Below are positions 3,185-49,885 of a DNA stretch of 64,000 nucleotides, piece by piece (position 1 is the stretch's first letter; every line of letters starts with the position of its first letter). Both the position numbers and the translations under genes were made by a program. The notes under the pieces are model-generated. The model worked only from the letters and a program-made list of their open reading frames with translations, was not told where the DNA came from and searched no databases. Source of the stretch: Maricaulis maris (lineage in GTDB: Bacteria > Pseudomonadota > Alphaproteobacteria > Caulobacterales > Maricaulaceae); the NCBI RefSeq assembly GCF_003634045.1, contig NZ_RBIM01000007.1:124001-188000 (forward strand). Direction: 5' to 3'.

Positions 3185-3761
3185 GTCCCTCACACTCCTT
3201 GACCCGCCCGCCGCGGAGCCTGTCAGCCTGTCCGAAGCCAGGGCCCGCCTGCGGGTGGCGGATGCGTCGCAGGATGACGCGATCAACCACTGGATACAAA
3301 CCGCCCGGGCGCGTGTCGAGCGGGATACCGGGCGGGCGCTTCTCTCCCAGACCTGGCTCGAGCGCCGCGATGTCTGGTGGGGCGAGGGGCGTCTTTCGGC
3401 CTTCGGGACGCGGTTTCGCCTGTTGAAACCGCCCCTGATCGCGCTGGAAGCGGTCACGGTATACGGGCTGGATGATGCGCCGTCGGAGATTGATCCGGCG
3501 GCGTTTTTTGTCGACACGCTGAGCGCTCCGGGGCGGCTGGTCCTGCGACCGGGCATGAGCTGGCCGCAGCCGGGCCGGGCGGCAGCGGGGATCGAGATCC
3601 GCTTTCGCTGCGGCTATGGCGACCAGCCTGATGACGTGCCGGCGCCGCTGCGCGAAGCCATTCTCCAGCTCACCGTGCATCTTGCGGAAACGGGCGGCGC
3701 CAGTGCCCTGCCGCCCGGCGTGGCCGACCTGATCCGGCCTTTCCGTCCGGTGATGTTGTGA
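3183..3761 (+). CDS. GTA head-tail adaptor (gp6, phage gp6/phiE125 gp8 family)
   Basis: This 192-residue head-tail connector-type protein should form the ring joining the portal to the tail. It shows the family layout: PVSLSEARARLRV near residue 15, then DAINHWIQTARARVERDTGR, and a C-terminal region with LREAILQLTVHL. The first methionine (MSLTLLDPP) is preceded by ACGGAG about nine bases away. The stop overlaps the next gene's GTG by four bases, so the two are probably translationally coupled. In the R. capsulatus GTA a gp7 gene follows; here it is absent. Confidence 0.88.
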   Translation: MSLTLLDPPAAEPVSLSEARARLRVADASQDDAINHWIQTARARVERDTGRALLSQTWLERRDVWWGEGRLSAFGTRFRLLKPPLIALEAVTVYGLDDAPSEIDPAAFFVDTLSAPGRLVLRPGMSWPQPGRAAAGIEIRFRCGYGDQPDDVPAPLREAILQLTVHLAETGGASALPPGVADLIRPFRPVML

Positions 3762-4171
3762 GCGGCGTGATTGAGGCTCTGCGCGCGGCCCTGACAGCGC
3801 AGTTTGCCAGCGATCCGGCGGTGATGATCCTGCTGGGCGATCCCTTGCGACTTTATGACGAGCGCGACGGACGTGCAGCCTTCCCGCACGCCAGCTGGGG
3901 CCGCGTGGAGACGCGCGAAAGCGGCGCCGATGATGTCCGCCTGCTGGACATCCGCCTGACACTTGATGTCTGGCATCGCGATGGCGATCCCGACCCGGTG
4001 GTCACGGCCCTGGCCGATGCGGTTGCCAGTGCGTCACCGGATCTGCCTGCCCCCTGGCGCCTGATCAGCCTGACGCCGACCTATCGCGACGTCTTTGCGA
4101 CGCGGGACCGACGCTTGAAACGCGGACTGTTGCGGGTAAGGGCTGTGGCGGGGGCGCAGGTGTCGGCGTGA
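3758..4171 (+). CDS. GTA tail terminator (gp8, DUF3168)
   Basis: This 137-residue DUF3168 protein is expected to cap the tail tube at the head-proximal end. The typical start (VIEALRAALTAQF...), LLDIRLTLDVWHRDGDP in the middle and LRVRAV near the end fit the family. The GTG start overlaps the adaptor stop (GTGA), which favours this start over internal ones. Instead of the tail tube gene, about 980 bases of accessory sequence follow. Confidence 0.88.
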   Translation: MSGVIEALRAALTAQFASDPAVMILLGDPLRLYDERDGRAAFPHASWGRVETRESGADDVRLLDIRLTLDVWHRDGDPDPVVTALADAVASASPDLPAPWRLISLTPTYRDVFATRDRRLKRGLLRVRAVAGAQVSA

Positions 4172-4322
4172 AATCGGCACAATTGCTGCCTATATTGGCG
4201 CTTGCGGGTCAGAAGTGGTGCCGGAAGGGGTGACTGTTTACGGCCCGGTAAGCGCGCCTGCGCTATAGACCAGACAGGCGAAACCGGCTAAAAATTGCCA
4301 CAAGTCGATCAGGAGTTTTGTG

Positions 4323-4400
4323 ATGCATCGTGAAGGTACAAACCGGATTGAGGGTAGCAATCGTGAAGGCACCAACCGGCTCGAGGGCACGAATCGCTGA
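4323..4400 (+). CDS. 25-residue EGTNR-repeat peptide
   Basis: This short ORF of 26 codons has an AGGAG site eight bases before its ATG. After MHR, the peptide is four copies of an EGTNR-like unit at residues 4-8, 10-14 (EGSNR), 15-19 and 21-25. The copies use different codons for the same residues (gaa/gag, ggt/ggc, aca/acc/acg, aac/aat, cgg/cgt/cgc), which suggests selection on the peptide rather than recent DNA duplication. A rho-independent terminator starts 18 bases after the stop, so it looks like a complete minimal gene. The peptide is very hydrophilic with no membrane segment, so it is unlike known type I toxins. I know no family; function unknown. Confidence 0.6.
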   Translation: MHREGTNRIEGSNREGTNRLEGTNR

Positions 4401-4418
4401 TTGGCGGCGCGTTGCACG

Positions 4419-4441
4419 GCCCGGCTTGTCCGGGCTTTTTT
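4419..4441 (+). terminator. Rho-independent terminator after the EGTNR peptide
   Basis: A perfect six-pair stem (GCCCGG/CCGGGC) with a CTTGT loop is followed directly by six T. It would end transcription after the short peptide ORF and is one of two terminators lying between GTA genes. Confidence 0.85.
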
Positions 4442-4526: not shown

Positions 4527-5051
4527 TTGAGCCTGTTGCAAATTCTGCCGGCCATGTCGCCATTTGTCCTGCTCCTGTCGGTCGGGATAGCGTGGCTGGC
4601 CTACCGGGATGCGCGTCGGCGCAACCGCATGGATCATGATGAAGCCCGCAAGCGCGACCAGGTCTCCAAGTCTTTTGACCACATTATCGAGCAGACCCGT
4701 GATCGCGACCTGATCGAGATGAATGAGCAATTCAAGGCCGTGATCGACAGCCTGAAGAAAACCGGGCCGGGTCCCTATGGTTTGGCCGAGGTCGAAGGTC
4801 ATTTCGTCAAACACCGCCAGGCCGCCATTGATGCGGCGGAGGTGATCACCAAGCTGTTCAACTATTATGAGGCGACCGCGATCGGGATCAGCCTGGGTGC
4901 GCTCGACGAGGAAATCATCAAGCAGTGGTGGCGCGCCAGCTATGTTGCGGATTGGCAGGACTTCTCCGCCTATGTCACCGAAAAGCGTGAGCGCGATGGC
5001 CGCGAGGCACTCTACCTGCAATATCAGAGGCAGGCCGAACGCTGGGCCTGA
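4527..5051 (+). CDS. Membrane-anchored hypothetical protein inside the GTA cluster
   Basis: This 174-residue protein has one N-terminal membrane segment (about residues 8-25) followed by a charged stop-transfer stretch (RDARRRNRMDHDEARKRDQ). The rest is a helical cytoplasmic domain with HFVKHRQAAIDAAEVITKLF and WWRASYVADWQDF, which resembles DUF4760-like small membrane proteins; that likeness is uncertain. The start is TTG at 4527, six bases after a perfect AGGAGG. The gene lies between two terminators, so it is probably transcribed separately from the GTA genes. Nothing ties it to particle structure. Confidence 0.75.
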   Translation: MSLLQILPAMSPFVLLLSVGIAWLAYRDARRRNRMDHDEARKRDQVSKSFDHIIEQTRDRDLIEMNEQFKAVIDSLKKTGPGPYGLAEVEGHFVKHRQAAIDAAEVITKLFNYYEATAIGISLGALDEEIIKQWWRASYVADWQDFSAYVTEKRERDGREALYLQYQRQAERWA

Positions 5052-5080
5052 CCGGCCCCCACCTACCCCCACCCCACCCA

Positions 5081-5106
5081 ACCGCCCCCAACCGGGCGGT
5101 TTTTTT
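5081..5106 (+). terminator. Rho-independent terminator before the tail tube gene
   Basis: A seven-pair stem ACCGCCC/GGGCGGT with loop CCAACC is followed by six T. It sits 30 bases after the membrane protein gene and 45 bases before the tail tube gene. A single long GTA transcript would have to read through it, or the tail genes need their own promoter. Confidence 0.9.
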
Positions 5107-5150: not shown

Positions 5151-5567
5151 ATGAGCGTGCAATCCGGCCGCGATATCCTGATCCGTATCGGCGATGGCGG
5201 TGATCCGCCCGTGTTCACCAGTGCCGCCGGGCTGCGGTTGAAGACGATTTCGCTCAATGCGCGCACGGTGGATGTGACGAATGCCGACAGTGCTGAAGGC
5301 TGGCGCGAGCTGTTGGCCGGGGCAGGCGTGAAGACCTGTTCCGTGTCCGGCTCGGGTGTCTTTGTGGATGTCGCCGCAGATGCACAGATCCGGCAGGCGT
5401 TTTTTGATCAGGCGGCGCTGGCCTGGCAGCTCGTCATTCCCGATTTCGGCACGCTGACCGGGCCTTTTCAGGTCGCGGCGCTGGATTATGCCGGCCGCCA
5501 TGATGGCGAGGCGACCTGGTCGATGAGCCTGGCCTCGGCCGGTCCGCTGGTGTTTGCGGCGCTCTGA
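5151..5567 (+). CDS. GTA major tail (tube) protein (gp9)
   Basis: This 138-residue protein of the TP901-1-like major tail family forms the tail tube. Typical features are SGRDILIRIGDGGDP at the start, LNARTVDVTNADSAEGWRELL in the middle and a DGEATWSMSLASAG strand pair near the C-terminus. The ATG follows AAGGAG by eight bases. It opens the contiguous tail block that runs to 12106 with overlapping genes. Confidence 0.9.
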   Translation: MSVQSGRDILIRIGDGGDPPVFTSAAGLRLKTISLNARTVDVTNADSAEGWRELLAGAGVKTCSVSGSGVFVDVAADAQIRQAFFDQAALAWQLVIPDFGTLTGPFQVAALDYAGRHDGEATWSMSLASAGPLVFAAL

Positions 5568-47176: not shown

Positions 47177-47251
47177 TGGTGGGCGATACTGGGATTGAAC
47201 CAGTGACCCCCTCGGTGTGAACGAGGTGCTCTCCCGCTGAGCTAATCGCCC
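47177..47251 (-). tRNA. tRNA-Val(CAC)
   Basis: The minus strand reads GGGCGATTAGCTCAGCGG from 47251, with acceptor stem GGGCGAT/ATCGCCC and T arm GGTTCAATCC. The anticodon stem CCTCG/CGAGG encloses TTCACAC, so the anticodon is CAC, decoding GUG valine. The CCA end is encoded at 47179-47177. No introns or gaps; all arms pair normally. Confidence 0.95.
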
Positions 47252-48526: not shown

Positions 48527-49885
48527 ATGTCCCGATCCCGCGCCGCCATCATCCTCGCCGCCGGCCAAGGCACGCGGATGAAGTCGAAAACGGTCAAGGT
48601 CCTGCACAAGGTCGGCGGTCGACCGATGCTGGACTGGGCCGTGGCCTTGGCCGCCGATTGCGGCGCCTCCGAGATTGTCACGGTCTGGGGTGCCCATTCG
48701 CCGGCCGTGCGGGATGCCGCCGAGGCACTGGGGACGCGCACCGCGCTGCAGGATCCACCCAAGGGCACCGGCCATGCCGTGCAGGCCGCGCGCGCCGCCC
48801 TGACCGACCTGACCGGCGATGCCATTGTCCTGTACGCCGACACGCCCCTGATCACCGCCGCGACCGTGGCGCGGGTCTTTGAGGCACTCGAGGGCGGCGC
48901 GTCGGTTGCCGTTCTGGGCTTCGAGCCGGAGGACCCGGCGGCCTATGGCCGGCTGATCACCAATGCCGATGGCGATCTCGACCGGATCGTCGAATACAAG
49001 GACGCCAATGAGGCCGAACGCGCCGTCGGCCTGGTCAATTCCGGCGTTCTGGCGGCGCCGGCGGACCTCCTGTTCGACCTGTTGGGCGAGGTCACCAATG
49101 ACAATGCCAATGGGGAATACTATCTCACCGACGTTGTCGGCCTGGCCCGCAAGCGCAGTCTGCGCGCCGCGGTGGTGGTCGCCGATGCCGACGAGGTGTT
49201 GGGCGTGAATTCCCGCGCCGACCTGGCTGAAGCGGAAGCAGCCTTCCAGGCGCGCATGCGTGCGCAGATGATGGCCGACGGCGTGACCCTGATCGCGCCG
49301 GAGACGGTTTTCTTCGCCCATGACACAAAGATCGAACGCGATGTGGTGATCGAACCCAATGTTGTGTTCGGCCCCGGCGTGGTGATCGAGGAGGACGTGG
49401 TCATCCACGCTCATTCCCATGTCGAAGGTGCGCATCTGAAACGTGGCGCCCATGCCGGACCCTTTGCACGGCTGCGCCCCGGCGCCGAGCTCGGCGAGGG
49501 CTCGAAAGTCGGCAATTTCGTCGAGATCAAGAAATCGCAGCTCGCAGAGGGCGCAAAAGTCTCCCACCTTACCTATATCGGCGATGCGTCGATCGGCGCG
49601 AACGCGAATATCGGAGCCGGCACCATCACCTGTAATTACGACGGATATGACAAGCATCGAACCGTGATCGGCGAGAATGCCTTCATCGGGTCGAACACCT
49701 GTCTCGTCGCGCCGGTCACGGTCGGGGCGGGCGCTTTCACGGCGACCGGAACCATTGTGACCGAGGATGTGCCCGCTGATGCGCTTGCGCTCGCCCGCAC
49801 GCCGCAAACCCACAAGCCGGGCTGGGCGGCCCGCTTCCACACCGCCAAGCAAGCCCGCAAGGCCAGAAAGGACAGCCAGACATGA
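48527..49885 (+). CDS. glmU: Bifunctional UDP-GlcNAc pyrophosphorylase/GlcN-1-P acetyltransferase
   Basis: This 452-residue enzyme makes UDP-GlcNAc for peptidoglycan and LPS. The uridylyltransferase half has ILAAGQGTRMKSKTVKVLHK and LYADTPLI, with NANGEYYLTDVV. The acetyltransferase half is a left-handed beta-helix with GPFARLRPGAELGEGSKVGN, CNYDGYDKHRTVIGENAFIG and GTIVTEDVP. AAGGA lies seven bases before the ATG. It heads a run of metabolic genes, and its stop overlaps gabD by four bases. Confidence 0.96.
   Translation: MSRSRAAIILAAGQGTRMKSKTVKVLHKVGGRPMLDWAVALAADCGASEIVTVWGAHSPAVRDAAEALGTRTALQDPPKGTGHAVQAARAALTDLTGDAIVLYADTPLITAATVARVFEALEGGASVAVLGFEPEDPAAYGRLITNADGDLDRIVEYKDANEAERAVGLVNSGVLAAPADLLFDLLGEVTNDNANGEYYLTDVVGLARKRSLRAAVVVADADEVLGVNSRADLAEAEAAFQARMRAQMMADGVTLIAPETVFFAHDTKIERDVVIEPNVVFGPGVVIEEDVVIHAHSHVEGAHLKRGAHAGPFARLRPGAELGEGSKVGNFVEIKKSQLAEGAKVSHLTYIGDASIGANANIGAGTITCNYDGYDKHRTVIGENAFIGSNTCLVAPVTVGAGAFTATGTIVTEDVPADALALARTPQTHKPGWAARFHTAKQARKARKDSQT

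Follow-up and report, generated by a model that had tools for sequence, protein, structure and literature searches.

A repeat micropeptide gene paired with a DUF4760 gene in the gene transfer agent cluster of Maricaulis maris, and related peptides in phages

A 64,000-nucleotide stretch of the Maricaulis maris genome (contig NZ_RBIM01000007.1, positions 124,001 to 188,000; hereafter the window) contains, within a gene transfer agent (GTA) cluster, a short open reading frame (ORF) that encodes a micropeptide with four EGTNR-like units. This ORF looks like a real gene and, judged by its codons, its product is under selection as a peptide sequence. It is followed by a gene for a DUF4760 protein, and the comparison of loci indicates that the pair of micropeptide and DUF4760 recurs across Pseudomonadota. 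Related peptides are encoded without DUF4760 by Acinetobacter phages. A possible interpretation, to which we give nearly an even chance, is that the peptide restrains DUF4760 in the manner of an antitoxin and that the phages carry mimics of it.

Selection on the micropeptide

The micropeptide, MHREGTNRIEGSNREGTNRLEGTNR, is preceded by a Shine-Dalgarno sequence and followed by an intrinsic-terminator-like hairpin (Table 1), as the first-pass annotation of this DNA had described. The four units recognised there are EGTNR, EGSNR, EGTNR and EGTNR. When they were compared over the six unit pairs, 20 codon differences were synonymous and 3 were not. The closest relative found is a contig from IMG/VR (L036) encoding the four-unit peptide MRIEGTNRIEGTNREGTNRVEGTNR. 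Of 22 codons compared with it, 10 are changed and 8 of these changes are synonymous (p 3e-4). Both between the units and with respect to L036 the differences are mostly silent, and therefore selection acts on the peptide, which is what the annotation had suggested from the units alone. Counterparts are encoded by Maricaulis salignorans (L042; MKFCQTNIEGTSRIEGTSR, two units) and by Woodsholea maritima (L043; ...IEGTSRIEGTSRCEGTSRIEGISR, four units). Frame and repeat are retained and codons are changed in L036 and in both species, so that the proposed check for a repeat kept with varied codons in relatives turned out positively. A search of 61 relatives with the micropeptide (E up to 1), which misses M. 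salignorans, found it in four genomes, and in a short ORF only in the window and in W. maritima.

The repeat array, with a period of 33, 2.1 copies and a score of 91, ranks top of the 45 rows that Tandem Repeats Finder returned for the window. Across the whole genome (12 contigs, 3.57 Mb) the micropeptide has a single match. The hairpin between the two genes aligns with and is retained in L036, and so is the CCTATAT part of a promoter-like site which possibly serves as the cassette's own promoter. The consensus scan found one such site against 0.3 expected, and the terminator scan two sites in 1601 bases against a shuffle mean of 1.0. In Rfam, the sole match above the gathering score in the whole window is a tRNA (47180-47251), with none near the micropeptide ORF, and RNA folding in the region is unremarkable (z 0.19). 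No match was obtained with the micropeptide in PHROGs or with the window DNA against phages by blastn; tblastn of two peptides against phages gave none either, the queries being too short for BLAST. A precursor of a modified peptide was set aside as a candidate, no modifying enzyme adjoining the micropeptide in the window.

The DUF4760 pair and its place in the GTA cluster

The DUF4760 gene starts with TTG in the window, where L036 has ATG. In the predicted structure of the protein (mean predicted local distance difference test score 78.9, predicted template modelling score 0.63), an N-terminal helix (residues 7-47) is joined to a helical domain, and we infer that this helix spans the membrane.

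Micropeptides of this kind also stand ahead of DUF4760 genes elsewhere in Pseudomonadota, and the initial statement that no family like it is known was for this reason too strong. Examples are MKKTTNIILPTYPAMNEGWDF in the integrase-bearing Acinetobacter phage BUCTT20, MGKIYLEGWDF on a Kingella plasmid with phage genes, MREGYGLPIRHEGYGLP and MFILIGGAEGDCIEFGAEGDC at two loci from the window's own order, and MVNYVTLKLITTDEGWEL in a further prophage that was located by the DUF4760 profile. In the family of a Moraxellaceae metagenome-assembled genome (199 genomes), 16 genomes had DUF4760, at 17 places in all, and at ten of these places an obvious peptide was present.

For counting, a fixed rule was used: a Shine-Dalgarno-led ATG, 8-40 codons, an end of the form [DE]G-x(1-5)-stop, and a start at most 300 nt upstream of DUF4760. 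DUF4760 loci with at least 65 bits were called strong. The rule found a peptide at 21 of 35 strong loci, a set containing the examples on which the rule was modelled, at none of 24 weaker loci and at none of 59 on the reverse strand. The weak motifs of L013, L068 and L069 were scored as positives here, and L119 (MYKFSEGWDG) and L117 (internal SEGWYG) as negatives. After the rule had been fixed, a class sample of 321 genomes yielded a peptide at 3 of 5 strong loci (weak loci 0/9, reverse strand 0/14), and a genus set of 175 genomes at 10 of 12, two of the ten being copies in one genome (reverse strand 0/12). As a control, the rule was applied to 159 other ORFs from these loci and picked out one. 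Some loci are not independent: L184, one of the five strong loci of the class sample, lies at the genome place already covered by L071, L109 duplicates L009, and L228 and L235 come from a single genome as two copies. Two of the 32 DUF4760 places in relatives had no locus, one of them being counted later as L111.

When the peptide class, defined by the residue after [DE]G, was placed on the DUF4760 tree, 11 changes were needed; 300 shuffles needed 21 on average and never fewer than 16. A terminator-like hairpin lies between peptide and DUF4760 in 18 of 21 picked loci, 10-54 nt past the stop codon, a count made without a shuffle control; at L005, L007 and L181 the hairpin is unconvincing. At some loci the peptide ORF overlaps or nearly overlaps DUF4760 (overlap for example in L183 and L191). 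A scan for single EGT[NS]R-stop ORFs gave 18 chance-like loci, and in the listed ORFs that follow them no DUF4760 was recognised; a scan for EGYG-stop gave 11 loci of which L099 alone is relevant. A different arrangement was seen in L184 (1123-1245), where two Shine-Dalgarno-led MREVVGGF-stop ORFs are followed by a hairpin and then by DUF4760. They have no [DE]G motif and differ from each other at one silent base and in the stop codon.

In L036, M. salignorans and W. maritima the order and the place within the GTA cluster are those of the window: tail completion, peptide, terminator, DUF4760, tail tube. The window belongs to the same genus as M. salignorans, and DUF4760 is at this place in the L042 genome and in another genome of the genus (G003). 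On the DUF4760 tree the GTA copies cluster together (support 87, quick method). Of the 61 genomes, 47 yielded a tail tube gene; the best 30 clusters were taken and both borders of the slot were located in 27. The tail-completion and tail tube genes overlap by 4 nt in seven of these, so that the slot is empty. The gap is below 50 nt in ten further clusters and 70-205 nt without a recognised gene in six. The slot is occupied in four (window, 979 nt; M. salignorans, 1206 nt; L198, 670 nt; L199, 691 nt). An RcGTA-type core gene is not what this describes, as the slot is empty or below 50 nt in most of the 27 clusters. It is empty in several relatives and occupied in few; therefore the cassette is moron-like cargo. 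Thus micropeptide, terminator and DUF4760 form a two-gene moron-like cassette and are not a GTA structural gene. The first-pass annotation had placed a lone gene between two GTA structural genes. The outer flanks are indeed GTA genes, but the gene directly downstream is DUF4760 and the micropeptide is its partner in a cargo slot. Phage morons are similar in being self-contained cassettes between structural genes with a promoter-like site and terminators; they differ in that the cassette here lies within a GTA cluster and one of its genes encodes a 25-residue repeat peptide.

Table 1. Features of the cargo slot and its borders in the window
Feature	Position	Strand	Evidence
Tail-completion gp17-like protein, left edge of slot	3758..4171	+	PF11367, E 1.5e-25
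Promoter-like site GTGAAA / 17 nt / TATATT, possible promoter of the cassette	4168..4196	+	consensus scan only
Shine-Dalgarno AGGAG of micropeptide	4311..4315	+	7 nt before ATG; read directly
Micropeptide ORF (25 residues + stop)	4323..4400	+	ATG 4323, stop 4398-4400; letters, ORF translation, codon evidence
Unit 1, EGTNR	4332..4346	+	
Unit 2, EGSNR	4350..4364	+	
Unit 3, EGTNR	4365..4379	+	
Unit 4, EGTNR, abuts stop codon	4383..4397	+	
Intrinsic-terminator-like hairpin (stem 4418-4436) and T-run, between micropeptide and DUF4760	4418..4441	+	
DUF4760 protein	4527..5051	+	PF15956, E 9.8e-23; 81.3 bits, above the Pfam curated cut-off of 25
Terminator-like hairpin downstream of DUF4760	5080..5101	+	terminator scan
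TP901-1-type tail tube protein, right edge of slot	5151..5567	+	PF06199, E 1.2e-46; TIGR02126, E 5.3e-27

Elsewhere in the window an 18-bp tandem repeat was noted at 49330-49389 (3.3 copies, 71% matches).

Phage versions of the peptide

A scan of viral contigs for Shine-Dalgarno-led ATG ORFs ending in EGW[DN]F-stop gave 18 loci. DUF4760 is the next gene in 11 of them, of which eight belong to a single Acinetobacter prophage type, with one of the eight broken, and three do not; five are Acinetobacter phages without DUF4760, and two are chance-like. Friunavirus and Obolenskvirus are generally regarded as strictly lytic genera. Friunavirus phages such as Abp1 and WCHABP5 encode MDGYGIGVEGWDF between the endolysin and the small terminase. 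Among 17 viral loci with a Friunavirus small terminase, six have the peptide, seven have another ORF of 33 residues and four have neither. The 33-residue ORF is hydrophobic (such as MHWYDTKCLGGSVIPIIILICLLLQGAYCGWFS) and fills the micropeptide slot in L131, L133, L137, L140, L141, L142 and L144. Thirteen further records, picked for alignment across the slot, all start with MDGYG; 11 have two full units, one ends after MDGYGLSVEG and one consists of MDGYGIG alone. The micropeptide is unannotated in 12 of 13 phage records. A scan for MDGYG..EG.. returned five loci, three of them Friunavirus loci already known and the other two on the contigs of L135 and L139. The Obolenskvirus regions were likewise picked loci, and three of the eight examined have a free micropeptide. 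In this genus the peptide is MKEGYGLGKDGYGLGSEGWDF or its ..GWGF form, and one phage has MKDGYGISLEGWDL. Phage Scipio (L161, 151-297) encodes a 48-residue protein with KDGYGLGSEGWDG as its end; in L054, too, a longer phage protein terminates in the peptide units.

The Acinetobacter phages thus encode fused two- and three-unit peptides, and DUF4760 was found in none of nine peptide-bearing phage records searched. Among 17 two-unit phage peptides the last five residues occur in ten forms (EGWDF, EGWGF, EGWSG, EGWEG, EGWDL, EGWEF, EGYDS, EGYDG, EGYDV and EAWDG), and DGYG is identical in all 17, codons included; the invariance and the variant counts rest on the individual sequences, as the codon table, anchored on the first 14 bases, mixes in two shortened peptides. 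Five units (DGYGIG, DGYGIS, EGYGLG, EGWDF and EGWDG) are identical in phages and in bacterial or prophage neighbours of DUF4760.

Proposed role and alternatives

From the options of a tag, a regulator or a signal, which had been named for the peptide at the outset, we favour that of a ligand restraining DUF4760. The peptide would be a cytosolic ligand that holds back a DUF4760 effector anchored in the membrane. How much peptide is made relative to effector would depend on the intervening terminator or, at loci that lack one, on the overlap of the ORFs, and the hairpins seen in 18 of the 21 picked loci would shift the balance towards the peptide. Repetition of units could raise dose or avidity. 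If infection halted peptide synthesis, the effector would be released and the infection aborted, and phages would survive by means of their own multi-unit mimic. That some phages have the same motifs but no DUF4760 suggests a defence or toxin switch together with a viral decoy. In Maricaulaceae the pair rides as cargo of the GTA cluster. In its widest form the proposal is of a class of immune or toxin switches: peptides of 8-36 residues built from [DE]G units would restrain membrane-anchored DUF4760 effectors with lineage-specific units, and the concatenated, fast-changing mimics of phages would defeat the switches by covering several effector types simultaneously, with GTA cargo in Maricaulaceae as one setting. 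We hold this wider form slightly more tentatively than restraint and mimicry as such.

Type II toxin-antitoxin systems are similar in that a small gene stands ahead of a larger partner, often coupled or overlapping, and is specific for it; a small protein gene before its partner, as a recurring pair, is what was found here. In contrast to them, the small product at the loci seen here is just 8-36 residues long, ends in a short motif and has neither a fold nor a DNA-binding domain, and its neutralising action is hypothetical. The nearest precedent, by analogy, is pseudo-ToxI of phage PhiTE. PhiTE expands repeats into an RNA mimic of the antitoxin (PMC3475682), and ToxIN and pseudo-ToxI share with the present module a repeat element upstream of a protein gene with a terminator between them. 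The phage likewise has antitoxin-like repeats but no toxin, and PhiTE escapes by mimicry (PMC3475682); for the present module, toxicity and escape are proposals. In ToxIN the antitoxin is made of non-coding RNA and an endoribonuclease serves as the toxin (PMC3475682), in place of which we find a conserved peptide and DUF4760.

The chief rival is a leader peptide that acts only in cis: a ribosome pausing at the C-terminal EG unit and the stop codon would control read-through of the terminator or the downstream start, and DUF4760 would be expressed conditionally. A short ORF upstream of DUF4760, a motif that abuts the stop codon at most loci and the position of the hairpins in 18 of the 21 picked loci, which is the layout of an attenuator and is not seen in overlapping loci, would all fit, as would the overlap or near overlap of the two ORFs elsewhere. 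Arrest leader peptides such as TnaC share the short ORF, the conserved residues beside the stop and the terminator downstream; they differ in that the copies here persist in phages away from a regulated gene and that the units are tandem, with only the last one reaching the stop codon. The stand-alone multi-unit peptides of phages without DUF4760 count against a purely cis-acting leader, and in Friunavirus the gene directly downstream is that of the terminase. Moreover, some loci are too tight for a terminator, and the last unit is hypervariable in phages. We therefore consider such a leader unlikely, though it deserves more weight than the following alternatives. Alternatively, the peptide itself could be the active agent, or it could join DUF4760 as a co-factor in acting on the host or on a competing phage; DUF4760 could also confer immunity to it, and phages would use the peptide alone as a weapon or host modifier. 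Phages do retain it without DUF4760, it sits in their late-gene regions, and DUF4760 occurs without it too. However, the peptide has no known target and its class closely tracks the DUF4760 lineage, which fits a ligand-receptor pair better. An active peptide thus seems improbable, somewhat more so than a leader.

That the repeat acts as a type III RNA antitoxin, with the terminator setting its dose and DUF4760 as the toxin, would agree with the order of repeat, terminator and protein gene. But silent positions vary (20 of 23 codon differences), the RNA fold is ordinary, many loci have single units, and DUF4760 matches no solved nuclease fold; Pfam identifies it only as DUF4760 and not as a partner of the ToxN, CptN or TenpN kind. 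This makes an RNA antitoxin very improbable. Least probable of all is a chance or relic ORF without function. The ORF is short, and Shine-Dalgarno-led EGT[NS]R-stop ORFs do arise by chance, as in the 18 loci mentioned above; against this stand the frame, repeat and place retained in relatives, the codon pattern and the statistics of the association with DUF4760.

Several observations weigh against restraint of DUF4760 by the peptide. The proposal is built on selection at the peptide level, the shared gene order and position in three relatives, the association with DUF4760, the agreement with its tree, the hairpins between the genes and the phage copies; toxicity, binding and defence are inferred. 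Fourteen of the 35 strong DUF4760 genes are without a peptide by the rule. There are peptide-less DUF4760 clades at fixed chromosomal places, next to the end of a glyS-like gene (L121, L122, L233) or a tRNA-like element (L113, L114), neighbours which were identified by eye. In the GTA slot itself, DUF4760 is present without a recognisable EG micropeptide in L198 (G006) and L199 (G010), and without one by the rule in L015 (G091). An obligate antitoxin is therefore unlikely for the family as a whole. The majority of the unit variants found in phages, DGYGLS, EGWSG and EGYDS among them, were not seen beside DUF4760 in the sample, whose genomes mostly differ from the phages' own hosts. At the overlapping loci L183 and L191 the EG codons could double as the Shine-Dalgarno sequence of DUF4760; as a whole explanation this was set aside, because in window-type loci a terminator and at least 48 nt intervene. 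Two DUF4760 proteins were assigned to no known anti-phage defence system by the PADLOC models, the only match being to Csm2 (E 0.031), which we take as noise. Best hits for DUF4760 were at E 3.8 in a fold search and at E 0.1 in a sequence search of the PDB, and at E 0.037, to a match without a name, among viral models.

In the literature searched, EGTNR, EGWDF, DGYGIG and EGYGLG turn up in unrelated contexts only, and DUF4760 appears in one paper, as a table line (PMC9964261). Searches on micropeptide antitoxins, Friunavirus and anti-defence, GTA morons, and GTA and Maricaulis did not return the module among the matches listed; their coverage is mostly open-access, so an earlier description is possible. 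We count the module as new on the basis that no family or paper in the libraries searched matches it. One of the two genes in this recurring module has only about 25 codons and is of the kind that annotation skips. If the peptide is an antitoxin, it would represent a new type within toxin-antitoxin systems. If restraint and mimicry hold, they would provide a peptide counterpart to RNA antitoxin mimicry, give DUF4760 a role, account for the hypervariable micro-ORFs of Acinetobacter phages, and show a GTA cluster bearing moron-like cargo.
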